DNA of 64,000 nucleotides, from assembly GCF_002850255.1 (NCBI RefSeq), contig NZ_CP022523.1:692486-756485 (forward strand). The letters are read 5' to 3'. The notes beneath the pieces are model-generated. The model saw nothing but the letters and a program-made list of their open reading frames with translations, did no database searches and was not told where the DNA came from. The stretch comes from Pseudoalteromonas sp. NC201. Lineage in GTDB: Bacteria; Pseudomonadota; Gammaproteobacteria; Enterobacterales; Alteromonadaceae. Of the stretch, positions 24,978 to 44,079 are shown piece by piece; the stretch's first letter is position 1, and each line of letters opens with the position of its first letter. The position numbers were made by a program, and so were the translations under genes.

Positions 24978-25172
24978 TTGAATTATTTAGCACAGCCCAA
25001 TGCAGATTCTTATTTTGGAAATCTGCTTGGCGATTTTGGCGGAACAAGGCATGTAAAAAACTTGCCACTCACAGTGAAAAAGGCATTGGATAATCATTAT
25101 CTAGTCGATAAATTTATAGATAACCATACAAAAATAACTGACATATATGGACGCTCAGCTGCTGTCAAGTAA
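24978..25172 (+). pseudogene. acpH: Truncated ACP phosphodiesterase (AcpH) remnant
   Basis: The 64-residue frame starts MNYLAQPNADSYFGNLLGDFGG and continues to YLVDKFIDNHTKITD. This matches the N-terminus of acyl-carrier-protein phosphodiesterase (MNYLAH...LLGNLLGDF...VDxFTDxH), normally about 190 residues. It stops shortly after the first helix bundle. A TTG start lacks a clear ribosome site, and the expected His after MNYLA is Gln. It is most likely a decayed fragment left by rearrangement in this accessory segment. Confidence 0.6.
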
Positions 25173-25180
25173 TACTCATC

Positions 25181-25220
25181 CAACAAGGTTGTTTTAACAG
25201 CCTTGTTGCTTCTTTTATTT
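25181..25220 (+). terminator. Terminator downstream of hxlR
   Basis: A 13-bp stem CAACAAGGTTGTT / AACAGCCTTGTTG (one G-U pair) with a 2-base loop is followed by a T-rich run (CTTCTTTTATTT). Confidence 0.8.
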
Positions 25221-25454
25221 ATCTCTCATTTACTATTTGTATGTATTGATAAACAGTCACTTTGAGTCACCCTAAATAAGGTGCTGCTCTGACATATATT
25301 CGGGCTTAACTGACTTTCAGCGCCCCTAATGAGTTTCGAACCTAGCCACCCAAAAAGTAGAATACACCCACGCGGCATTGAATGCCTTGCCTATAACGGG
25401 TTTAACTAGGTAGGTTTGACCTTTTGTTCATCGTTATGTTTACAGCAATGAGAA

Positions 25455-25528
25455 TATGGCTATCAAGGGCTCATAAACACCCACTCGGGCTCGAGGCCCT
25501 TGTCACGACCGGGCTCCTTAATAGCCAT
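25455..25528 (-). ncRNA. Candidate seekRNA/bridge RNA of the IS1111-type element
   Basis: Directly downstream of the transposase (minus orientation) is a 74-base structured segment. The outer stem ATGGCTATcAAGG / CCTTaATAGCCAT encloses further GC-rich complementarity (GGGCTC, GGCTCGAGGCC). IS1111-type elements are known to carry a structured guide RNA in the non-coding region downstream of the transposase gene. The match here is positional and structural only; exact RNA ends and guide loops were not determined. Confidence 0.45.
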
Positions 25529-25536
25529 AATTTGAG

Positions 25537-26568
25537 TCATGATTGCGCCTCACTTTGTGTATATTGGGCTTTATAAGGTTCATTTCTTTGTAGCAATATC
25601 CACATTAAGCGAGCCAATCGGTGGGCCGTGGCCACCACCGCTTTATTTTTACCGCGACGTTCTACCAATGCGTTGATCCATTTGTTTAAATCATCCTGCT
25701 TTTTGTGCGCATGATTGACCACTGTACGGGCACCATGAATGAGTTGTTTTCTTAGATAACGATCACCTCGTTTGGTGATCCCTCCCATCTTATTGGTTTC
25801 ACCCGAAGCATATTGACGTGGTGTGATCCCAAGCCACACAGCCAACTCCTTTTTATTAGAAAATGCTTGCCCTTTATCTATTGTGGCACTCAATGCCGAT
25901 GCGTTGATAATCCCAATTCCGGGGATGGATTGGATAATTTGAGCAGCTTGGCTCTGTTCATTAAACTGCTTAAATTGTGCCTCTACATTTTTAATATTGG
26001 CGTCTAACTTTTGCATTTCTTCATAAACGTCTCTGAGGAGTAGATTTAAAGCTCCATGTAAATTACGGTTGAGCAGATCAGCAATGGTTGCACGAAAAGA
26101 CTTTAAGCTCTTCTTGATGACGATGCCAAATTCAAGTAACAAACCACATGTTTGGTTGATGCAGGCGGTTCGATTATGTATGAGCCGCTCCCGATAGCGA
26201 TGTAGTGCTAGGATTGCTTGTTGATGCTCTGTTTTTACAGGAACAAAGCGAATGTTAGGTCGAAGGCTCGCTTCATAAATCGCCATACAATCATTTTTAT
26301 CGTTTTTATTGCCACGGACAAAAGGGGTAACATGTTGCGCAGGGATAAGCTGAACTTGGTGCCCAGCTTGTAAGCAGTACCGCCCCCAATAATGAGACGT
26401 TGAGCATGATTCCATAACAACATTACAAGCAGGTAATTGGGTCAATGTTTGCAAGAGCTTTGCTCTATCTAACCTTCTGGAAAAACATTTATTACCTTGC
26501 TTATCAAACGATAAAAGTTGGAATACATTTTTTGCTAGATCAATTGAAAGCGTGCTAACGTTATTCAT
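25537..26568 (-). mobile_element. IS110 family (IS1111 group) DEDD transposase
   Basis: A 343-residue transposase. The N-terminal RuvC-like DEDD domain has LSIDLAKNVFQLLSFD, then VMESCSTSHYWGRYC and VRGNKNDKNDCMAIYEA. The C-terminal transposase_20 domain shows SIPGIGIINASALSATI and LAVWLGITPRQYASGE. The segment HYWGR and the RFVPVKTEHQQAI region are typical of the IS1111 group. The start at 26568 has AGGAG 8 bp upstream; an in-frame TTG at 26598 is less likely. The element appears intact. Its non-coding part (about 25320-25536) and a partial cupin copy (26665-26785) flank it. Exact element ends were not identified. Confidence 0.93.
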
Positions 26569-33020: not shown

Positions 33021-34271
33021 TTATTCAGCTGAATAGCCTTCACCAGCAGTAGACAACACGCCCTTTGGAACTTCTCCATATACAGAGTTAATAAGTGTGG
33101 TCACAGTTGTATTTGTCGTCTTTGGGTTCGCGTGCAACCAAATTATCTGTGCAGAAGCCGTAATTGGATCAACTGTGTTTCCTTCTTCTCGATTGCGGCA
33201 GTTTGAATCAAAACTGGGCCACTTGTCCGACTTCGTATGAATTTGTGTGTTCTGATCCTTGTAACTCCGAAAAGCCTTTACTGGATCACATTTAACAGAA
33301 GGTGAAACTCCAGGGGCTCCTCTATCAGTGTGGCTTTTTGAATATGAATCTTGAATCAAATGTAAGACTGACCCTAATGCAGCCATCCGAACCTCATCTT
33401 CGTTTTCAATAACCGTACAGCTAGCGGAAATAAACATTCCGTCACACGCTAAGTTGAACGTCGTTGCAACACTGAATCCCTTGAAAGTCTTTTGTTTGCC
33501 ATTCCAAAGCTCAGTGTTAAATAAACGAGACCAAAAACTAATAGGTCTTTCCTCACACCAGCCTTTTGCTCTTACATTGTCTACCCCAAGCGCTGGTTCA
33601 ATATTTGGGTATTCACCACTAGACCAGTGGTCGCAATACGGTTGACTAAGGTCGCTTGAACCAAGAGATAGATTGAAAGCAAAATTTGACCATTCGATAA
33701 CCTTATTCAGAGTCTTCTCGCTTGGTATGCCGTTAGCTGATGCCATGGAGTGTAAAAATTGTAATTCCCCTAAATGACTGGCACAAAGTAATCCGTCATC
33801 TGTAATATCAATCTTGTTATCAGGGTCATCATCCAGTCTGCGGTTACAAACACGCTTTATGGTAGCTGCAAATTTGGCTGCGGTTCTATCCTTATTCTGC
33901 ACTTGCCGTGTCGGATCATCAGACCATCTAATCGACTTTACCAGTTGGTAGTAATCTCTAATCGCCTCCGGATACTTATTGGGCGATGAATATATGTCAA
34001 TGTTGTTATTCTCTGAAATCTGTGAATTGCATTCGTTCGGCATATTGGTGATTTCAGTTTCATTGATATTTGCTTCGGCCAAACACTGTAAAGCTAATAC
34101 AGTCATTTTTTCGTGGTTCCGCTCCCATTCGATGCCGACGATTCCTAATTTATCCGTATCAAAGGTGGGGGCGGACTCGTTCTTTACTGCTTTTTTCCCT
34201 ATTTCATAAGAAAGTGCGGATGTGGTAATAGCAAACAGAACAGCTGAAAACAATGAACAGATGACTTTCAT
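33021..34271 (-). CDS. Exported protein, possible phospholipase C/S1-P1 nuclease-like fold
   Basis: A 416-residue protein with a signal peptide (MKVICSLFSAVLFAITTSALS). It has about ten cysteines, consistent with disulfides. The segment ALGSVLHLIQDSYSKSHTDR resembles the zinc-ligand helix of zinc-dependent phospholipase C and related S1/P1 enzymes (LHxxxDxxxxxH). An early WERNHEKMTVLAL may supply a further His. I infer a secreted hydrolase, but the assignment is weak. The start at 34271 has GGGGA 7 bp upstream and is better than a start at 34295. Confidence 0.55.
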   Translation of the reverse strand: MKVICSLFSAVLFAITTSALSYEIGKKAVKNESAPTFDTDKLGIVGIEWERNHEKMTVLALQCLAEANINETEITNMPNECNSQISENNNIDIYSSPNKYPEAIRDYYQLVKSIRWSDDPTRQVQNKDRTAAKFAATIKRVCNRRLDDDPDNKIDITDDGLLCASHLGELQFLHSMASANGIPSEKTLNKVIEWSNFAFNLSLGSSDLSQPYCDHWSSGEYPNIEPALGVDNVRAKGWCEERPISFWSRLFNTELWNGKQKTFKGFSVATTFNLACDGMFISASCTVIENEDEVRMAALGSVLHLIQDSYSKSHTDRGAPGVSPSVKCDPVKAFRSYKDQNTQIHTKSDKWPSFDSNCRNREEGNTVDPITASAQIIWLHANPKTTNTTVTTLINSVYGEVPKGVLSTAGEGYSAE

Positions 34272-34295
34272 ATTTGGTCCCCTAAAAATTAACAA

Positions 34296-34829
34296 ATTTA
34301 TGATCCTTAAAGTGTCGAAATGAAGGCCGACAAAATGGAGCTCGCTACAGTATAGTAGATTTCGCCATGATTTCAGGCTGTAAATATCTGGTTGTGCAAA
34401 GCGAAAATAGCAACATATTTATATTGGCGAATGCAGACCTCAGCGATTGCCTTCTGCATCTAAAAATAACGCGAAGAAACTGCTGTCGTTATCGAAAAAA
34501 TTTCGAGAATTTAACTCTTATGAATGCTTTAAAGTCCTTATTAAAGTGAAATTGTTATAGCAATTACTTTTGTACGCGATGTTAGTGAGGCTGTCTTTAC
34601 GATTAGTGTTAAAGTGCTTTGCAAGCGTACAAGTTTACTTAAATGCTTTGGACTAATACCAACAAAATCTAAAAACTTCCGCTCCAGTAGGCGCTTTTTA
34701 TTGGGATTTGATGATTGTATTAACCGATATATCGTTATCTAGTGCAAAGTAAATATAAAAGTTCACTTATTATTTATCCAACCTCTATATTTTCATTCAG
34801 CGCAAAAGCGCTTGTTTGACCTGCACTTC
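34296..34829. other. Intergenic stretch, nothing recognised
   Basis: I see no gene or convincing repeat in 530 bp. The short plus-strand frame near 34367-34549 has no ribosome site and low-complexity content. The region adjoins a decayed IS982-type transposase. Confidence 0.4.
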
Positions 34830-35150
34830 TCACATTGTTTCCCCTATGAGTTCTCCTGACAGTGCTGTGTTTATGTAACTTCTGTAACCGCAGAGTTTGC
34901 GAAAGAGCGTGTAGGCCATTTCTGTCACCAGCTTTCGATCATCTACGTTTGTTAGCTTCAACGCCACAATTTCACCTATGTGATTGACGATCAAATGCAG
35001 TGTAAATCTAAACGATCAGACCATGGTGCCTTTGCTATCCTGAGCAATGCTTTCAAATACCTTATTTCTCTTGGCGCGAATGACGTGACAGACCCTCGCA
35101 ATAGGTTTCAACTAACTTATTCACGCTCGTTTCTTTTGGTCGAATGAACT
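34830..35150 (-). pseudogene. Decayed IS982-family transposase fragment
   Basis: In the minus strand, one frame reads KVFESIAQDSKGTMV, stop, SFRFTLHLIVNHIGEIVALKLTNVDDRKLVTEMAYTLF before a stop at 34830. The HKVFKGIAKRGK...GFKLHLIVN-GE...NVDDRK-V pattern is specific for IS982 DDE transposases. Internal stops and missing ends show that it is inactive. It borders the RiPP-like cluster and hints at past transposition there. Confidence 0.7.
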
Positions 35151-35233
35151 GGTCAGGAAGTGAGCTATTCGTTCCTTTGATTTTTTAAATTCTTATCCGA
35201 AGTCAAGATTAAGTTAAATTGGCTAGGCTTAAC

Positions 35234-36388
35234 TTATGACTCTATTGCTGGATAGTACTTATTAAGCCAGTCTAATTCTGCTAACTCTGAGTAATCTTGT
35301 TGCAACGTTTGCTCTCTAGTTTGATGTCTAAAGTTTCTTTTTAGACTTATTAAGTAGCTTGAATACATTTTTGCAACGCGTTCCATTGAGTAGTTGTTTT
35401 CAGCCCATTCTCTACAATGTTTTGAAGAAATTTTATCTATATTTTTGGTTGCCCAGTAAAACTGCTCTTCGTTACGACACCTAAATCCTGTGAGGCCATG
35501 TAGATTATTTTCTGGAATGCCGCCCCAATCACTAGAAATTACAGGTGTACCACTCAACATGGCTTCGATCATAACGCCCCCAAACACTTCAAGAACAATA
35601 GTTGGCAGAAAGAGAGCTTTGGCCTTTTTAAGTAAATGCTTTCTTTTATTTAAATCAGCATAACCCACAAACTCAACATGGCTTGGAATTGTTTTATAAC
35701 TTAGGTGATTGATATCTCCCGGACCTGCGACAATAAGCTTAGCGTTGGCTTTTCTCGTTGCTTCAACAGCTATTACTAAACCTTTATTGGGATCCATCCT
35801 ACCAAGATATAAAAAATAGTTATCTTTAGCTTCACAGTATTCGAAATCATCACAATCAAAATAGTTTGGTATTACTGCGTCGTAACGTTTGGGATGTGTT
35901 ATCCCCAATTGACCGTAAACATAGCTCATATGAGCATATGACTCGAATATTTTAAAAGGAGCAAAACATCCCTTGCCATCGTAGCCGATGCCTGGTTCTA
36001 TGATGAAACATTTTTCCTCGAACATGGATACCGCTTCTTCCATACTATTACCCCAAAAGCATAAAATAGCGTCTCCAGCTTCAACTCTAATTTCTAGTTC
36101 TCGTTGAACATTTTGTTTAAATTTATGATGAGCGATGTCCAATGTGCTGTGATTGCAATAACTATCTTGCCAACTTTTACCGCCGTATGCTTTAGTTAAA
36201 ATGTCGTCGGTCGTCACAGTTACATGTTCATGGCAGTCAACCTCTGATCGTTCATGACCATAATGAATGATCTTAAAAAAAGGTTTCATCATTTTGCAGA
36301 ATTTGACGACTTTTTGCGTGAAGGCGCAAAACAGATAGTCCTGATTTGTTGTTACGGTATGAGGGGGGGCTAGTACATGCAATATCAT
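35234..36388 (-). CDS. GT4-type glycosyltransferase in RiPP-like cluster
   Basis: A 384-residue GT-B enzyme without a signal peptide. The C-terminal half shows NYFLYLGRMDPNKGLVIAVEA, IVAGPGD, VEFVGYADLNKRKHLLKKAKALFLPTIV, and the nucleotide-sugar motif EVFGGVMIEAMLSGTPVISSDWGG. The N-terminal half holds HYGHERS and CFWGNS. It probably transfers a sugar from a nucleotide donor; the acceptor is unknown. It is the last gene of a four-gene minus-strand run: precursor peptide, radical SAM, peptidase, glycosyltransferase. The 27-bp gap to the peptidase makes it part of that operon. Confidence 0.85.
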   Translation of the reverse strand: MILHVLAPPHTVTTNQDYLFCAFTQKVVKFCKMMKPFFKIIHYGHERSEVDCHEHVTVTTDDILTKAYGGKSWQDSYCNHSTLDIAHHKFKQNVQRELEIRVEAGDAILCFWGNSMEEAVSMFEEKCFIIEPGIGYDGKGCFAPFKIFESYAHMSYVYGQLGITHPKRYDAVIPNYFDCDDFEYCEAKDNYFLYLGRMDPNKGLVIAVEATRKANAKLIVAGPGDINHLSYKTIPSHVEFVGYADLNKRKHLLKKAKALFLPTIVLEVFGGVMIEAMLSGTPVISSDWGGIPENNLHGLTGFRCRNEEQFYWATKNIDKISSKHCREWAENNYSMERVAKMYSSYLISLKRNFRHQTREQTLQQDYSELAELDWLNKYYPAIES

Positions 36389-36415
36389 TTGTGTTCTTCC
36401 ATTATTTTGTTGTTT

Positions 36416-37990
36416 TTATTGGATTCGAAAGTTCTTAAAGATAGAAGGTGAAAATTTGCATGGTAAATCTGCAGAAAATTCTTTCCCTTCAACAGTTAGG
36501 ACACCTCTCGTAGAGCATGACTTATTATAGCTATCTAAAAGCAAATATCCGTCGCTTCGAATATCCAGCGAATTTATCTTTTCGATATATCCGTTTGCTT
36601 TTTCGAAACTCGATGGACAACTGGAATGTTGGTATATTCTTACTCGCTCTTCGCGAGTTTCGAATGAAAAAAAGCCATCACATGCCGACGTCATAAAATG
36701 TCTAAAAATTGCTTTTTTTAATATGTGGTTAGGAGTGGATTTATTAATTATTATTTCACCGATTAGCTGCTGATAGCTTTTTATTATCGCTTCTTCGGGT
36801 GGGGGAGTTGAGTTGCCAGAAGTGAGCGCACCTAACGCCGTTTTACTTTCAGGAGATATATTACTCACGAAGTGATTGAGACTATTTTCTCGAGTGTTAA
36901 GAAGTTTTTGTCGCCAGTAGTGAAAAAATTGTTTTTCCCCAATTAAGTGATGTAAAAATGCATGTCCGCAGCTATAGCGGCCTGGCCAATACTGCGTTCC
37001 CGGTATTACCTTATAGCTATGCTCAAGCGAACAGGTGAGCTTTTGAAGATTATTTTGTGTGTCAAACTGCTCCCTATCGATGAGCTTTAAATTGAGCTTG
37101 GCTATATTAGCTGCGAATTCAGCACCACCTTCGCTAAGCCAGTGAGGTTCATGACTGTCATTACTTGTCCAAATATGGAATACTTCGTGAGCGATAAATT
37201 GTTCTAGGTGTTGAGCAATAGCAGGGCTAAAATTGAGGTAACGTTTACCACCAAACCTTAAGACAAAAGTGTTACCATTATGCACTCCGCCATCATAAAA
37301 ATCAGACTCTGGACTCTCGAAGCTTGCAACAATGGTTAACTTTTTATCATTTGATAGTGCTAATTCTTTACTGTAATAACTGTGAAACTTTTTGAAATTT
37401 TCAGTTATCAGATCACTTAGCCATTGTGGTAGATTATCATTGAAGATGAAGTTGAATTTACTTTTCTTACTGACGAGCACTGATTCTTCGTTAAAGTTAA
37501 ATATTAAAAAGTTATTTTTCTTCTCTACACTTACCAGTTTTTTGTCTTTTTCTGCGAAAAAAGTGATGCAATTTTCTTCTAAACTTTCCCATTCGTCATC
37601 TGGCTTTATTTTCATTGCAATTGGAGTGATTGCGGTCATGAATACGCCATGAGAGTCTCCTAAATTCACGTATGGCGCGTATGTTGCGTTAATATACTTA
37701 TTTAAGGGGGATAGAAGGAATGAGGTAGTTAAGCCTTTCTCATTCATTAGAACTATGTTACTACTATGATGAGCTATATTTTCCCTCTGGTTAATATTTA
37801 AAAATGCAGATTCTGTTTCTTTCGATGCGTTGAGTTTCAATGCAGTGTAAGGTTTGCTAGCTCGATATTCGACCTGCAATCCTTTTGGGCTTTGTTTAAG
37901 TATTAATTTTACAGGAAAAGTACAGCTCTCTTTTGCGAAACTAGAGAATGAAAGTATCATCGAACTAAAAAATATAAAAATCTTAATCAT
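36416..37990 (-). CDS. Exported gluzincin (M1-type) metallopeptidase-like protein
   Basis: A 524-residue protein with a signal peptide (MIKIFIFFSSMILSFSSFA). It carries HEVFH at residues 268-272 and WLSEGGAEF with Glu291, which is exactly HExxH-x18-E, the zinc site of M1/gluzincin peptidases. No GAMEN exopeptidase motif was seen. The N-terminal 180 residues are beta-rich. The gene starts 1 bp after the radical SAM stop codon, indicating translational coupling, so it may process the modified peptide or act on its target outside the cytoplasm. Nothing similar is known to me as a RiPP leader peptidase, so this role is inference. Confidence 0.75.
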   Translation of the reverse strand: MIKIFIFFSSMILSFSSFAKESCTFPVKLILKQSPKGLQVEYRASKPYTALKLNASKETESAFLNINQRENIAHHSSNIVLMNEKGLTTSFLLSPLNKYINATYAPYVNLGDSHGVFMTAITPIAMKIKPDDEWESLEENCITFFAEKDKKLVSVEKKNNFLIFNFNEESVLVSKKSKFNFIFNDNLPQWLSDLITENFKKFHSYYSKELALSNDKKLTIVASFESPESDFYDGGVHNGNTFVLRFGGKRYLNFSPAIAQHLEQFIAHEVFHIWTSNDSHEPHWLSEGGAEFAANIAKLNLKLIDREQFDTQNNLQKLTCSLEHSYKVIPGTQYWPGRYSCGHAFLHHLIGEKQFFHYWRQKLLNTRENSLNHFVSNISPESKTALGALTSGNSTPPPEEAIIKSYQQLIGEIIINKSTPNHILKKAIFRHFMTSACDGFFSFETREERVRIYQHSSCPSSFEKANGYIEKINSLDIRSDGYLLLDSYNKSCSTRGVLTVEGKEFSADLPCKFSPSIFKNFRIQ

Positions 37991-37991
37991 T

Positions 37992-39170
37992 TTACTTCCC
38001 TTCTATAATTTTAAGGATTTCATCTTTAGGATAGCCATTGGAGACTAAATGCTGAGTAATTTCAAAATATAATGCACTTATTGCCTCGCAAAACACGGAT
38101 GGGTTATTAAACCCGTTGTTTTTACTGTATCTATTTTCTAAGTCTCCGCCTCTGCAGAGCTTCTCCCATACACAGTCTTTACAGCCTTCAGGTGTTTCTT
38201 TGTAAATTTTATCTATCTCTTTAAAAATTTCGTGTTCCAAAAATGATCTTAATGTGGTTTCTTTTACGTTGCTTGTTGGCGCCATTTTTCGCCATTCACT
38301 CGTTGGAATGAATGAATCATCAATGGTTATCGTTCCATCTGATTGAATACAAATTATTTGATTGTTTATTATTTCTTTTCGATCATATGGTCTATTGTCT
38401 CCTCCTTCCCTCTTTTGAAATATTCTAAATTTGTCTTCAATTTGACGTGTTGAAAAATTATTAGTTTCTCTCCAAAGATTAAAAATATCGAGCACTGCTT
38501 TTTTATAATCATTGATTGTTGTATTGTTAGGGAATGGGTCGTCATGACTTATATCTGGGAACAAGAAGCTTAAATTTTTTATATTTAAATCTTCAACTAA
38601 GTGCTCAGTGATTTTTTTATAGTCAAAGGTGCCATTTAATACGCTAATGACACCAGGCTGAGTAAGTCGTCCTTCGGAGGCCGCCTTGGTTATAAGTTCA
38701 GTGCCCGCCTTTATTTTGTCATAAGAGCCTTTACCATTGTGGTCGATTCTGAATTTATCATTGAAGCTCTTTGGGCCATCAATACTTAAGCCTGGACTCA
38801 CCTGATATTTCTCGAAGAGCGTAATCCACTCTTCAGTAACTAGAGTTACATTAGTTTGTACTGATAACTTCAACTGGGTATGCTCAGACAGCCCTTTACT
38901 TAGTTTTTCACATAAATCTGAAAACTTTTTAAGCGGGAGCATCAAAGGCTCCCCACCATGTAAAGCTATCTCGATAACAGAAATCTTTATTTCTTTTAAT
39001 GAACGAAGGAGGAAGTCAATTAAGTCATCAACGGTTTTGCCTGAAATTAATGCAGGTCTATCTTTGTAAGAATCATCGCCACCAAAAAAATAATAGCAAT
39101 ATGTACATGCTAAATTACATCTTTCAGATACTTTTAATATAACCTGCAATCTATCTATAGACTTTAGCAT
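37992..39170 (-). CDS. Radical SAM/SPASM peptide maturase
   Basis: A 392-residue enzyme. The [4Fe-4S] motif C18-x3-C22-x2-C25 (CNLACTYC) is followed by EIALHGGEPLM and the SPASM-maturase segment GLSIDGPKSFNDKFRIDHNGKGSYDKI. A C-terminal cysteine-rich region (EGCKDCVWEKLCRGGD...VFC) can bind auxiliary clusters. This layout is shared with sulfatase maturases and with RiPP enzymes that install C-C or C-X crosslinks, including three-residue cyclophane formers. The small Gly-rich gene just upstream is the obvious substrate. A hairpin at 39203-39227 lies in the 69-bp gap between them. Confidence 0.88.
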   Translation of the reverse strand: MLKSIDRLQVILKVSERCNLACTYCYYFFGGDDSYKDRPALISGKTVDDLIDFLLRSLKEIKISVIEIALHGGEPLMLPLKKFSDLCEKLSKGLSEHTQLKLSVQTNVTLVTEEWITLFEKYQVSPGLSIDGPKSFNDKFRIDHNGKGSYDKIKAGTELITKAASEGRLTQPGVISVLNGTFDYKKITEHLVEDLNIKNLSFLFPDISHDDPFPNNTTINDYKKAVLDIFNLWRETNNFSTRQIEDKFRIFQKREGGDNRPYDRKEIINNQIICIQSDGTITIDDSFIPTSEWRKMAPTSNVKETTLRSFLEHEIFKEIDKIYKETPEGCKDCVWEKLCRGGDLENRYSKNNGFNNPSVFCEAISALYFEITQHLVSNGYPKDEILKIIEGK

Positions 39171-39202
39171 TATTATCTCTTTCTATTTTTAGGCTAAAAG
39201 TA

Positions 39203-39227
39203 GCCCATGCTTTTGCATTACATGGGC
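39203..39227 (-). terminator. Intercistronic hairpin between precursor and maturase
   Basis: GCCCATG / CATGGGC (7 bp) with an 11-base loop lies 12 bp after the precursor stop codon. TACTTTTAG follows in the transcript. It probably attenuates or protects the RNA so that precursor mRNA exceeds maturase mRNA. Confidence 0.5.
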
Positions 39228-39239
39228 ATAGATTTATAC

Positions 39240-39479
39240 TTATGAACAGCGCTGGCTGTAACTTCCAGAACCTTGAGTGTAACCACTCCCATCATTTCTC
39301 TGGTCGTAACTTCCTCCATTTTGTCCATAGCCAGGATTTGAGCCACCACACTGGGCGTAGTTTCCACCTGAAATGGAAGGTAATACTTCAGGCTCTAGTA
39401 GCTTAGTCACTAGTGGGCTTTCTGTTACCTTTCCCTCGTGTTGTTGTAGTTGGTTGAATAAATTACTTTTTTCTATCAT
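39240..39479 (-). CDS. Putative RiPP precursor peptide with five Tyr-x-Gln motifs
   Basis: A 79-residue peptide. Residues 1-39 look like a leader (MIEKSNLFNQLQQHEGK...VLPSISGG) ending in Gly-Gly. The core (40-79) is Gly/Ser/Asn-rich and carries Y41-A-Q, Y51-G-Q, Y58-D-Q, Y67-T-Q and Y74-S-Q, each preceded by G, N or S. Cysteines at 44 and 78 flank the series. The regular three-residue motifs fit substrates of cyclophane-forming radical SAM enzymes, where an aromatic residue is joined to the residue two places on. It is the first gene of the operon. No known RiPP family was matched by eye. Confidence 0.78.
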   Translation of the reverse strand: MIEKSNLFNQLQQHEGKVTESPLVTKLLEPEVLPSISGGNYAQCGGSNPGYGQNGGSYDQRNDGSGYTQGSGSYSQRCS

Positions 39480-39843
39480 GAGCTTTCCTTGTAAAAGATT
39501 GTTATTAATATCTCGAATTACAGAAGTCTATGTCTGGAGGCATTACTTCGTAATTCACTCGTAGTGACGTTGTCATATCAATCAGCTCTTATTGGCCTTA
39601 AAAGTTAATAATGTTTACTTTTGTACCTTAATGCTGAACTTTTAATTTATCAGTACGTAAGTTAAATGAAACTATCTAAGTAGGTAGTTTTGAGGCGACC
39701 AACTTTTGCCAAATGGTTATAGCTGCTGAGGAGTTGCGAGTGATGCTGTTGCGCCGAAAATTGTTTGATGTATACCGCTTCAGATAACAGCTGCTATCAA
39801 TATGAAAGTAAATGAAGGATTGTTTTTATTGAGGTGAAAGCAT
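39480..39843. promoter_or_regulatory. Divergent promoter region with GerE-type dyad
   Basis: A gene-free 364-bp stretch separates the precursor (minus) and the GerE regulator (plus). At 39669-39690 an imperfect 22-bp dyad, AAACTATCTA ... GTAGGTAGTTT, lies between the two starts. GerE-type regulators bind such dyads, so it is a candidate operator for one or both genes. Confidence 0.45.
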
Positions 39844-40164
39844 TTGAATGTTAATGTTGAGTTTAAAGGTAATTTTTATGTGATCAAGGAGGTGGGTGTG
39901 TCTTGCTGTTTTTCTAAATTATCAAGCCGAGAGCGTGATGTATTACTACTTTTATTATCAGGGAAGTCCTATAAAGACATTGCATTTGAGCTGCATGTTT
40001 CATCAAATACCGTGAAGTTTCATTGTGGAAACATTTACGACAAGCTGGGTGTTGCCAATAGAAAAGTGCTGTCGGCTAGGTACTTTAGACATGATGTATT
40101 GGAGCAGAATGAGGCTGTAAATGATAAACTACAATACAATGACGCCAAAGAGCCTATCATTTAG
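39844..40164 (+). CDS. GerE/LuxR-type HTH regulator lacking a receiver domain
   Basis: A 106-residue protein whose only domain is the LuxR C-terminal helix-turn-helix (KLSSRERDVLLLLLSGKSYKDIAFELHVSSNTVKFHCGNIYDKLGVANR). There is no receiver or autoinducer-binding domain, so activity must be set by expression level or a partner. The likely start is TTG with GAGGTGAAAG upstream. It is divergent from the RiPP-like operon and is its probable regulator. A second frame overlapping its end (40121-40375) is not supported. Confidence 0.8.
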   Translation: MNVNVEFKGNFYVIKEVGVSCCFSKLSSRERDVLLLLLSGKSYKDIAFELHVSSNTVKFHCGNIYDKLGVANRKVLSARYFRHDVLEQNEAVNDKLQYNDAKEPII

Positions 40165-40358
40165 CTTGCTATTGTTTATTAAAGCTCAAAGGGAAGCAGA
40201 GACAAGCTTAAATTTAACAAAGACTTGTCACTACTTGGCAAACCATTCCTGTAAGCTTTTAGTCGCAGTGGCTGTTTTATCACAACGATCAACATACCTT
40301 ATTACCTTCGTAAATTTAGCAACCGTCTTATGGTTTGCTTTTAGACGCGCTTTACCTG

Positions 40359-41234
40359 CTACTGGCCTTTATTGATATGCTTATTTATCCAATCTTGGTA
40401 ATAAGATACACGCGTTAATACTGCGGTTGAACCGTATTTTCCTAAAGTATAATTTTCCAAATCGCCTTCAATTTCTCTCCATGCAGCTAATCCAACCAAT
40501 ACCGGAGTTGAGCCTTGATAAATGATTGCTGCGCCGCCGCTATCTCCTGAGCCTATAGTGCCTTCTAACGGTAGCGCATCGGCTCCTTGTTCGAAGGTAA
40601 ATCTGAGCCAGTGTGCTTTTGCTTCTGTGATCACGTTGTTGTAAACATGCATTTGATAGTCGTCTTGAGTGAAAGCCCAATCTGAGAAAAATTTGGTGAC
40701 TTGGTACCATGCATAGGTAGTTAAGCTTGGTCCCTCAGAGTCGTGCTCTTCACCCGTTATTCCCGTTCCGATAGCGCCGCGACCAAACCCGGTTATTTCC
40801 ATGCCTAACTCTTCATTTCCCTCATATATAGCGATGGGTTGAATGTGTGTCACAGGCTTACTTAAGCGAATTAACGCAATGTCTTTGGCGTTATTTAGCT
40901 GCTCCATAAGCGGTGCCGGGTCGCCTTCACTCCAGTCACCTTCTACCTTTTTGTAATCCGGGTGAATAATGATTTGTGCGATTTGATTTTCAACGCCATG
41001 TACCATGATAGGTTTGTCTTGGTAGTCATACATAAACGTATAAATGACGTGGGCTGGTGCCAATAACCAATGCTTATCGATTAACACCGAACCGCCTTGG
41101 AATGGCATATCAACATAAAACTGCGGGATGCTATTAACCTTATACAAGTCAGGGTCAACATCATGTCTTTTGACAACCGCATGGTTCTGAAAAGAGGCAA
41201 ACATGAGCAAAAAAATGGCAAGGTATTTCATCAT
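40359..41234 (-). CDS. Exported trypsin-like (S1) serine protease
   Basis: A 291-residue protein with a signal peptide (MMKYLAIFLLMFASFQNHAVV). Catalytic residues: His in VLIDKHWLLAPAHVIY, Asp in NAKDIALIRLSKPV, Ser in GTIGSGDSGGAA. The segment VLVGLAAWRE and the final YYQDWINKHI helix are usual for the family. It is likely periplasmic or secreted. It converges with the GerE gene and may be unrelated to the RiPP cluster, although a protease near such a cluster deserves note. Confidence 0.88.
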   Translation of the reverse strand: MMKYLAIFLLMFASFQNHAVVKRHDVDPDLYKVNSIPQFYVDMPFQGGSVLIDKHWLLAPAHVIYTFMYDYQDKPIMVHGVENQIAQIIIHPDYKKVEGDWSEGDPAPLMEQLNNAKDIALIRLSKPVTHIQPIAIYEGNEELGMEITGFGRGAIGTGITGEEHDSEGPSLTTYAWYQVTKFFSDWAFTQDDYQMHVYNNVITEAKAHWLRFTFEQGADALPLEGTIGSGDSGGAAIIYQGSTPVLVGLAAWREIEGDLENYTLGKYGSTAVLTRVSYYQDWINKHINKGQ

Positions 41235-42490: not shown

Positions 42491-42562
42491 GTTGATCCAG
42501 TTGATCCAGTTGATCCAGTTGATCCAGTTGATCCAGTTGATCCAGTTAATCCAGTTAAGCCA
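42491..42562 (+). repeat. Tandem 9-bp repeat (GTTGATCCA)
   Basis: Six perfect copies of GTTGATCCA are followed by two degenerate ones (GTTAATCCA, GTTAAGCCA). It lies in an intergenic region before the MFS gene. No frame through it has a start codon with a ribosome site. Copy number is likely to vary among strains. Confidence 0.9.
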
Positions 42563-42660: not shown

Positions 42661-44079
42661 ATGTTAGAAGATACGGTAAATACAGAGGATAAAATTGCTC
42701 TGGGGGCCGGACAAAAGCGGGTGTTGTTCAGCTTGGCTGTGGTACTCATTTTGCCTACGCTTGGCATGAGTAGTATCAATGTCTTGTTGCCAACACTTGC
42801 TGAGGAGTTTGGCGTGGGGCAGGCATTGGTGAATTGGGTCGTTGTGGCATATTTGCTTTCGCTTACCGCGTTTATTCTTGGTGCTGGCGCTGTTGGAGAT
42901 AGTGTTGGCCGAAAAAGGGCACTTCGCATTGGGATCAGCGTCTTTTGTGTGGGCTCCATTGTCGCTGGGCTGAGCGTAAATCTTTGGATGTTGATTGCTG
43001 CTAGGCTGTTCCAAGGCATTGGCGCTGCGCTGTTATTATCTCAAATATTTGCACTGGCAAGCGTTGCGATGCCAAAGCGTAAAGTTGGACTTGCAATGGG
43101 GTTACTCGGTACTACCGCTGCGATTGGCACGGCACTGGGGCCATTGCTAAGTGGCGCAATGCTAGAGTGGTTATCATGGCAGTTCACTTTTTGGTTGATG
43201 ATATTGCTTGGTGGTGCAGCTTACTTTTTAATAGCAAGATTTCTGCCTGATGATGTCGCAAGTCCACCTGAGCTACAGCGTTTTGATGTTATTGGAAGTG
43301 TGTGGCTGTCAGTGTCATGCCTATTTTATGTGTTGGCTATGCCATCGAGTAGTTCGTTTAGCCTTGTCTTGCATAGCGTATTTTTCTTCTTTTCTGTGGC
43401 TTTTATCTACTGTTTTGTACAAAGCCAAAAGCATGCTCAATTTCCACTTGTGAGTTTGGCTTTTCTGAAACACAAGCTACGCAACACCTCGTTAATCGTG
43501 AGCTTTATAGTTGACGCCATCGCGATGTCGACATTAGTTGTCGGGCCTTTTTATCTCACTTATGCGTTAGGGCTGAGCCCGGTCACGGTTGGTCTTATTG
43601 TGTCTATTGGACCTTGTATTGCTGCTGTCGCTGGTTATCCGTCAGGCGAGGTGGTTGATCATTTTGGCATCGCGTTTGCCATGTTTTTGGGCTTGCTGAT
43701 GATCCTCATCGGGACAATTAGTTTTGCAATCCTACCTTCATTATTTGGACTTTATGGCTATGTTGTCGCGTTATTTGTGTTAACTCCCGGAAGGCAGTTG
43801 TTTCTAGCGGCTCACCATACCTTTGTGATGACGACAGTAGCCGAAAAAGAAAAGGGCATGGGATCAGGGCTCATTAATTTATGTAAAAACTTAGGGTTAA
43901 TGACCGGAGCCTCATTACTTGGTGGTGTATTTAGCCTGTTGTTGCAGGTCAAGAGTGCGACCTTGGCAAGCTCTGCACAGCTGAATATGGCATTTTCAAT
44001 GACCTTTTTACTCGCCGCACTGTTTATTTTGGTCTCGCTCGTTGCCGTATTTGTGATTAGCCGAAAGCAAGCGTTTTAA
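42661..44079 (+). CDS. MFS transporter, EmrB/QacA-type (14 TM)
   Basis: A 472-residue membrane protein with about 14 hydrophobic helices. Family markers are the motif-A-like GAVGDSVGRKRALRIG between TM2 and TM3 and RLFQGIGAALLLSQIFALA in TM4. Motif C appears as LGTTAAIGTALGPLLSGAMLEWLSWQFTFW. It is probably a proton-driven exporter of a hydrophobic or amphipathic compound. It lies 102 bp ahead of the thermostable-hemolysin operon on the same strand, so it may export that operon's product, which is inference. AGGAG lies about 10 bp before the ATG. Confidence 0.9.
   Translation: MLEDTVNTEDKIALGAGQKRVLFSLAVVLILPTLGMSSINVLLPTLAEEFGVGQALVNWVVVAYLLSLTAFILGAGAVGDSVGRKRALRIGISVFCVGSIVAGLSVNLWMLIAARLFQGIGAALLLSQIFALASVAMPKRKVGLAMGLLGTTAAIGTALGPLLSGAMLEWLSWQFTFWLMILLGGAAYFLIARFLPDDVASPPELQRFDVIGSVWLSVSCLFYVLAMPSSSSFSLVLHSVFFFFSVAFIYCFVQSQKHAQFPLVSLAFLKHKLRNTSLIVSFIVDAIAMSTLVVGPFYLTYALGLSPVTVGLIVSIGPCIAAVAGYPSGEVVDHFGIAFAMFLGLLMILIGTISFAILPSLFGLYGYVVALFVLTPGRQLFLAAHHTFVMTTVAEKEKGMGSGLINLCKNLGLMTGASLLGGVFSLLLQVKSATLASSAQLNMAFSMTFLLAALFILVSLVAVFVISRKQAF

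Follow-up and report, generated by a model that had tools for sequence, protein, structure and literature searches.

A putative triceptide-type RiPP locus with a Tyr-x-Gln precursor, a gluzincin gene and a phage-type glycosyltransferase gene in Pseudoalteromonas sp. NC201

A stretch of 64,000 nucleotides from Pseudoalteromonas sp. NC201 (the window) was analyzed for a candidate gene cluster for a ribosomally synthesized and post-translationally modified peptide (RiPP). The cluster is located on the second replicon (C2) of the two-contig genome. Its four minus-strand genes encode a precursor peptide of 79 amino acids (39240..39479), a radical S-adenosylmethionine (SAM) maturase of 392 amino acids related to XyeB, YhhB and FxsB (37992..39170), a probably exported gluzincin peptidase of 524 amino acids with an M1/M61 fold (36416..37990) and a family 4 glycosyltransferase (GT4) of 384 amino acids that belongs to the phage-type family phrog_3408 (35234..36388). 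A divergent plus-strand gene (39844..40164) encodes a regulator of 106 amino acids with a GerE domain (LuxR-type helix-turn-helix) only; its start, read by eye, is a TTG with AGGTG upstream. All five open reading frames of a preliminary description of this DNA were found at their coordinates, its intergenic gaps of 69, 1 and 27 bp were reproduced, and Pfam agrees with the identities it gave to the radical SAM protein (PF04055), the glycosyltransferase (PF00534) and the regulator (PF00196). As judged from sequence comparison, the precursor, the cyclophane-type radical SAM/SPASM maturase, the gluzincin and the GT4 form an operon-like run with a divergent regulator on one inserted segment.

Precursor and maturase

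The precursor consists of a leader with LLEPEVLPSISGG and the core GGNYAQCGGSNPGYGQNGGSYDQRNDGSGYTQGSGSYSQRCS. Behind the double glycine the core harbors two cysteine residues as well as five tyrosine and five glutamine residues, every one of the latter two in a Tyr-x-Gln motif. None of 200,000 composition shuffles of the core reached five such motifs. Aromatic-x-x motifs behind a leader, the hallmark by which triceptide precursors were judged, are therefore present as five Tyr-x-Gln. A similar precursor adjoins the maturase gene in two genomes (L038 and L083) of one genus in another family, the maturase being 36% identical to that of the window. These peptides contain LLRPEVLPGI or LLRPEILPGI together with GGNYRQ-SGGGSYSQ-SGGGDYSQ-SGGGDYTQ, so that the leader motif LLxPE(V/I)LPxI is common to all three precursors, and the two relatives have GGxYxQ repeats. 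The cores of the two relatives carry four Tyr-x-Gln, a number reached in four of 200,000 shuffles, and the core of L038 keeps the register while lacking cysteine. Their repeats are probably internal duplications; the repeat count is thus weaker evidence than the common leader and register. Within that family, the maturase occurs in two of 47 genomes, counting the starting genome.

The maturase contains an intact CNLACTYC cluster motif (CxxxCxxC), and its C-terminal cysteines 330, 333, 339 and 361 are invariant in all nine aligned sequences, the one from the window included. Its best NCBIfam match is XyeB (TIGR04496; 288.5 bits, E-value 6e-86, cut-off 450), followed by YhhB (NF041707; 240.3 bits, 2.9e-71, cut-off 445) and FxsB (TIGR04269; 200.1 bits, 5.3e-59, cut-off 370). 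All three are cyclophane-forming families, which places the protein in the cyclophane group of radical SAM/SPASM maturases by its top models, each of them below its cut-off. The combination of this maturase group, a Tyr-x-Gln core and relatives with the same leader motif points to a triceptide-type RiPP.

An anaerobic sulfatase maturase next to an unrelated small open reading frame was weighed as an alternative. The preliminary description had named maturase homologues that act on sulfatases as grounds for abandoning its reading. Sulfatase-maturase structures do occur among the solved relatives of the protein, and the sulfatase-maturase model TIGR03942 gives it 139.7 bits (1.3e-40). However, this score lies far below the cut-off of 349.45 and below those of the three cyclophane-maturase models, the best solved relative is the radical SAM domain of ChlB, and the adjacent reading frame encodes a patterned core and recurs in similar form in related genomes. 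A sulfatase maturase is therefore very improbable.

Relatives of the maturase are rare. Among 5.8 billion proteins, 410 were found at an E-value of 1e-60; the best 120 of these comprise one at 99% identity, followed by 65%, 52% and 47%, down to 35%. Counting the NC201 genome each time, matches were obtained in five of 108 genomes of the genus (1e-20), four of 369 of the class and five of 398 of the phylum (both 1e-60), and profile matches in nine of 394 genomes of the order (1e-60).

Eighteen stretches around XyeB-like maturases were inspected, two of which (L039 and L040) share a genome while four pairs share a genus; the neighborhoods of the closest maturases P0010 (65%), P0011 (52%) and P0015 (45%) and of the peptidase homologue P0002 lie outside this set. 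In the xenorceptide-type triceptide system XyeA/XyeB of Xenorhabdus bovienii (L025), the maturase is 34% identical to that of the window, which scores below the XyeB cut-off. XyeA resembles the window precursor in its double-glycine leader and aromatic-x-x motifs, but its core has one WVN-FAR-WDK block instead of five Tyr-x-Gln. A 'hypothetical' protein that by eye resembles an aspartyl protease follows this maturase, an order comparable to that in the window, whereas HlyD and a peptidase-ATP-binding cassette (ABC) exporter are present and no glycosyltransferase is annotated. The maturase of the YhhA/YhhB system of Vibrio echinoideorum (L026) is 30% identical; it is followed by the 2-oxoglutarate (2OG) oxygenase YhhC, with no annotated peptidase or GT4 alongside. 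YhhB is reported to act on tyrosine and histidine (PMC11002830). In another Pseudoalteromonas (G055, L035), an XyeB-like maturase with 36% identity is combined with the precursor GGNFGKGCVGTWSEGVSGFKQQCQP, in which, as in the window core, two cysteines surround aromatic-x-x motifs (GGNFGKGC...GFKQQC). Unlike the window, this locus encodes an S41-type peptidase, HlyD and a C39-ABC exporter split over two frames. A further Pseudoalteromonas locus (G017, L037) has an XyeB-like maturase without its N-terminal part, adjoining a transposase by eye, and, judged by eye, a neighboring protein similar to the S41-type peptidase found at L035; it is likely a decayed cluster.

Peptidase, glycosyltransferase and export

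No Pfam or NCBIfam family reached its cut-off for the peptidase, and PF05299 (M61) gave no match up to an E-value of 1. The protein harbors an HEVFH motif, Y339xxG342 and eight invariant cysteines, an M1/M61 fold according to Foldseek and an N-terminus that by eye resembles a signal peptide. The HExxH-x18-E signature previously assigned to it had to be revised: the residue at x18 (E291) is replaced by aspartate in three of eight homologues, and the conserved glutamate is located at x14. This residue, E287 (WLSEG, HExxH-x14-E), is invariant in all eight aligned homologues and is a candidate zinc ligand. With an M1/M61 fold, HExxH and a downstream glutamate, the protein shows the features of a clan MA gluzincin and is probably an exported one. 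Eight proteins of the family were found, one of which (P0002 from Pseudoalteromonas fenneropenaei) is labelled M61 by UniRef and gives 15.0 bits with PF05299 against a cut-off of 22. No match was found in viral contigs, and a scan of genome contigs with the peptidase alignment yielded two remote gluzincins only (24 and 26% identity). Remote gluzincins occur in 13 other Pseudoalteromonas genomes, none of which is among the five with a maturase match (1e-20). The family is small.

A role of the peptidase in the pathway is plausible. Peptidases above the M61 cut-off adjoin the maturase in three of the 18 stretches (L040, L041 and L044), so that a gluzincin beside a cyclophane-type maturase is not unique to the window. 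These three, unlike the window peptidase, exceed the PF05299 cut-off and go with precursors of other types; the peptidase profile reaches the L041 protein weakly (4.2e-5), and the L044 maturase lies just above the XyeB cut-off (450.3). As in the window, none of the three stretches has a C39-ABC match, which was found in ten of the 18 (the split one of L035 is counted, a short ABC hit in L038 is not). Because L041 and L044 lie close to the ends of their contigs, an exporter may have escaped view there. At L041 (G368), one XyeB-like maturase and a double-glycine peptide are flanked by two different M61 peptidase genes. A RiPP-associated gluzincin is also known from the lanthipeptide cluster of Myxococcus fulvus (MfuP, M61, 7xyo), which ranked third in the Foldseek search, with 9-11% sequence identity and a TM-score of 0.34-0.36, but was not among the 50 matches listed in a second search. 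MfuP, which is described in PMC10885120, belongs to another RiPP class and cuts inside the modified core.

The GT4 assignment rests on PF00534 (74.5 bits, cut-off 26.4), and among solved structures two chains that bear only the name 'Glycosyl transferase' come closest (1.2e-20 and 4.9e-20). The protein matches phrog_3408, a phage family, over its full length (323.5 bits). Among 50,697 phage records, 53 matched at 1e-8, 51 of them from Synechococcus phages; the best match, from cyanophage S-CAM7, is 48.6% identical over 90% of the protein. Matches with 46-51% identity were found in 22 viral contigs, whereas those in plasmid records were below 36%, and at 1e-40 the NC201 genome was the sole match among 339 genomes of the class. 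These relatives were drawn from phage, viral-contig, plasmid and class-genome sets, and cellular relatives may exist beyond them.

The phage affinity raises the question of whether the GT4 takes part in the pathway at all. As phage-type cargo it might modify a cell-surface sugar or another substrate and lie downstream by chance, which is a real possibility, if somewhat short of an even one: its closest relatives found are phage and viral-contig proteins, and no such GT4 adjoins the 18 other maturase relatives (tblastn, 1e-5). The S-CAM7 gene adjoins hypothetical, 2OG-oxygenase and tail genes, unlike the GT4 of the window, and no relative of the maturase or peptidase was detected in the 22 viral loci and L115 (phmmer, 1e-3). 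On the other hand, only 27 bp separate the GT4 gene from the peptidase gene on the same strand and in the same insertion, and its frame is intact in Pseudoalteromonas piscicida strain 2515 with one residue different. In addition, there is a weak match to TIGR04157 'glyco_rSAM_CFB' (31.7 bits, cut-off 400). Going by its name, we take this family to hint at GT4 enzymes in radical SAM peptide systems.

The preliminary description had noted that no export gene was seen, and positions 28-48 kb of the window indeed lack a C39-ABC or HlyD match. A major facilitator superfamily gene (42661-44079) lies outside the insertion in a flank common to sister genomes; preceding it, a 9-bp tandem repeat of 7.3 copies (42491-42556) is wholly or mostly uncovered in alignments of three sisters (L109, L111 and L113). 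Elsewhere in the genome, C1 encodes two C39-peptidase proteins, each adjoining an HlyD-like gene by eye, one of which also matches the annotated HlyD of Xenorhabdus bovienii. That these exporters act in trans on the window peptide is a guess. Both C39-peptidase proteins lie in a second RiPP-like region (G000:C1:4074000-4104000; L086, L087) with short double-glycine peptides and two radical SAM maturases nearest a nif11-class family (624.7 and 583.4 bits, cut-off 725).

The inserted segment and its surroundings

The whole cluster lies within a segment at 34750..40309 that was delimited by blastn against seven sister genomes, its left edge being approximate. The GC content of the insertion is 0.369 compared to 0.404 on the left and 0.446 on the right. 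In six of the seven sisters, 525-769 bp separate the right flank, matched from position 40310 of the window, from a short match on the left of about 80% identity that ends at 34749 (34756 in one sister). The right flank is also present in the seventh sister (L113), which lacks the left match. The trypsin-like gene on the right is present at 98-100% identity in eight of 107 genomes of the genus, including that of NC201. In strain 2515, whose cluster proteins are 99.6-100% identical, with precursor and maturase unchanged, an IS110 element follows the cluster, and a displaced copy of the end of the trypsin gene and an AraC-type gene lie beyond the cluster. The spacer of the sisters matches the AraC stretch at 89-96% (five checked). 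Of the AraC gene, the window retains no more than a fragment similar to its 3' part; near the left edge of the insertion there is also a remnant of a DDE transposase (34830..34994, minus strand; PF13612, 34.6 bits). The closely spaced flanks of the sisters and these remains indicate, at the level of sequence, that the regulator gene and the four genes from precursor to GT4 came in, or were retained, together as a single unit of low GC content.

A hairpin between the genes for precursor and maturase (39165..39245, minus strand), which may be an attenuator, is weak, with a z of -1.43 and equally good folds in 19 of 200 shuffles, and a terminator scan named no site there on the minus strand. Promoter and terminator scans returned fewer sites than in shuffled sequence, and Rfam gave nothing above gathering scores at 34500-40500. 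Outside the insertion, positions 25131-26503 are 98.6% alike to 19391-20763 of L024 over 1373 bp and correspond to most of the IS110 element of strain 2515. The gene at 33021-34295 encodes a protein of 424 amino acids with no Pfam or NCBIfam match up to an E-value of 1. It contains a HLIQDSYSKSHT motif, which we take to be reminiscent of zinc phospholipase C or nuclease sites.

Proposed product and its significance

The cluster is probably a biosynthetic locus for a triceptide-type RiPP. The earlier proposal of a radical SAM RiPP cluster with a crosslinked product is well supported by the cyclophane-group models, the patterned core and the recurring precursor, the crosslink remaining the predicted part. 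Co-occurrence held for the maturase and a like precursor, but not for orthologues of peptidase and GT4 in the 18 neighborhoods. The locus is likewise only in part as undescribed as it had seemed: the maturase group is known and M61 peptidases occur beside XyeB-like maturases in three genomes, whereas the GT4, with no similar protein in any of the 18 neighborhoods, remains unusual.

In the proposed mechanism, the maturase would bind the leader at LLxPEVLPxI and link each tyrosine ring to the beta carbon of the glutamine at i+2, so that as many as five rings of three residues would form. Such a Tyr-Gln bond is likely; crosslinks from tyrosine to position i+2 by related enzymes, namely YxdB to aspartate and YhhB to arginine, are described in PMC11002830. 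The predicted loss is 2.016 Da per ring (2 H), which would shift the core after the double glycine from 4126.64 to 4116.56 Da. The GT4 would add a sugar in the cytosol, perhaps on serine or threonine of the glycine-rich core. The peptide would leave at the double-glycine site, possibly via one of the two C39-peptidase exporters on C1. In the periplasm, the two core cysteines may pair, a disulfide after export being possible, and the gluzincin would trim the leader remnant or cut the product. By analogy with xenorceptides, the likely use would be antagonism of other Gram-negative bacteria.

Several points weigh against this interpretation. A search of databases with 5-residue words detected no homologue of the precursor, and plasmid records contain none outside the same species. 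The window gluzincin and GT4 have no match in any of the 18 neighborhoods (tblastn, 1e-5), and the exporter genes mentioned above are missing from 28-48 kb. We infer crosslinks, glycosylation and export from sequence, and the passages of PMC11002830 considered here name no Tyr-Gln link. Furthermore, the maturase reaches the curated cut-off of none of the NCBIfam families listed, and its weaker matches include the thioether models SCIFF and PapB, which would suit a RiPP enzyme that introduces another change, such as a tyrosine ether, an epimerization or a thioether at the two cysteines. Such chemistry is unlikely, as the three best models are all cyclophane-forming, every tyrosine and glutamine of the core falls into an i, i+2 register, and this register is kept in the cysteine-free core of L038.

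Beyond the triceptide-type product itself, a more specific and rather doubtful proposal is a glycosylated triceptide, in which the phage-type GT4 would attach a sugar to a peptide with up to five Tyr-Gln cyclophanes, and the periplasmic M1/M61-like peptidase would remove the leader or cut the product, a task of the C39 exporter in many relatives. Titles and beginnings of abstracts, with most subscription journals outside the coverage, contained no report of this cluster or of a glycosylated triceptide. The enzyme group, the crosslink type and RiPP gluzincins are already known; new are the small peptidase family, the presence of a phage-type GT4 in such a cluster and, as far as this literature shows, the putative branch defined by Tyr-x-Gln and its leader motif. 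The GT4 suggests that glycosyltransferase genes move between phages and peptide pathways, and the cluster is a ready test case for triceptide glycosylation. The nearest characterized kin, the xenorceptides, are described as antibacterials that target BamA (PMC12971899). A new branch of cyclophane peptides could thus be of use, and the cluster points to one that is built on Tyr-x-Gln and whose leader motif is common to distant bacteria.

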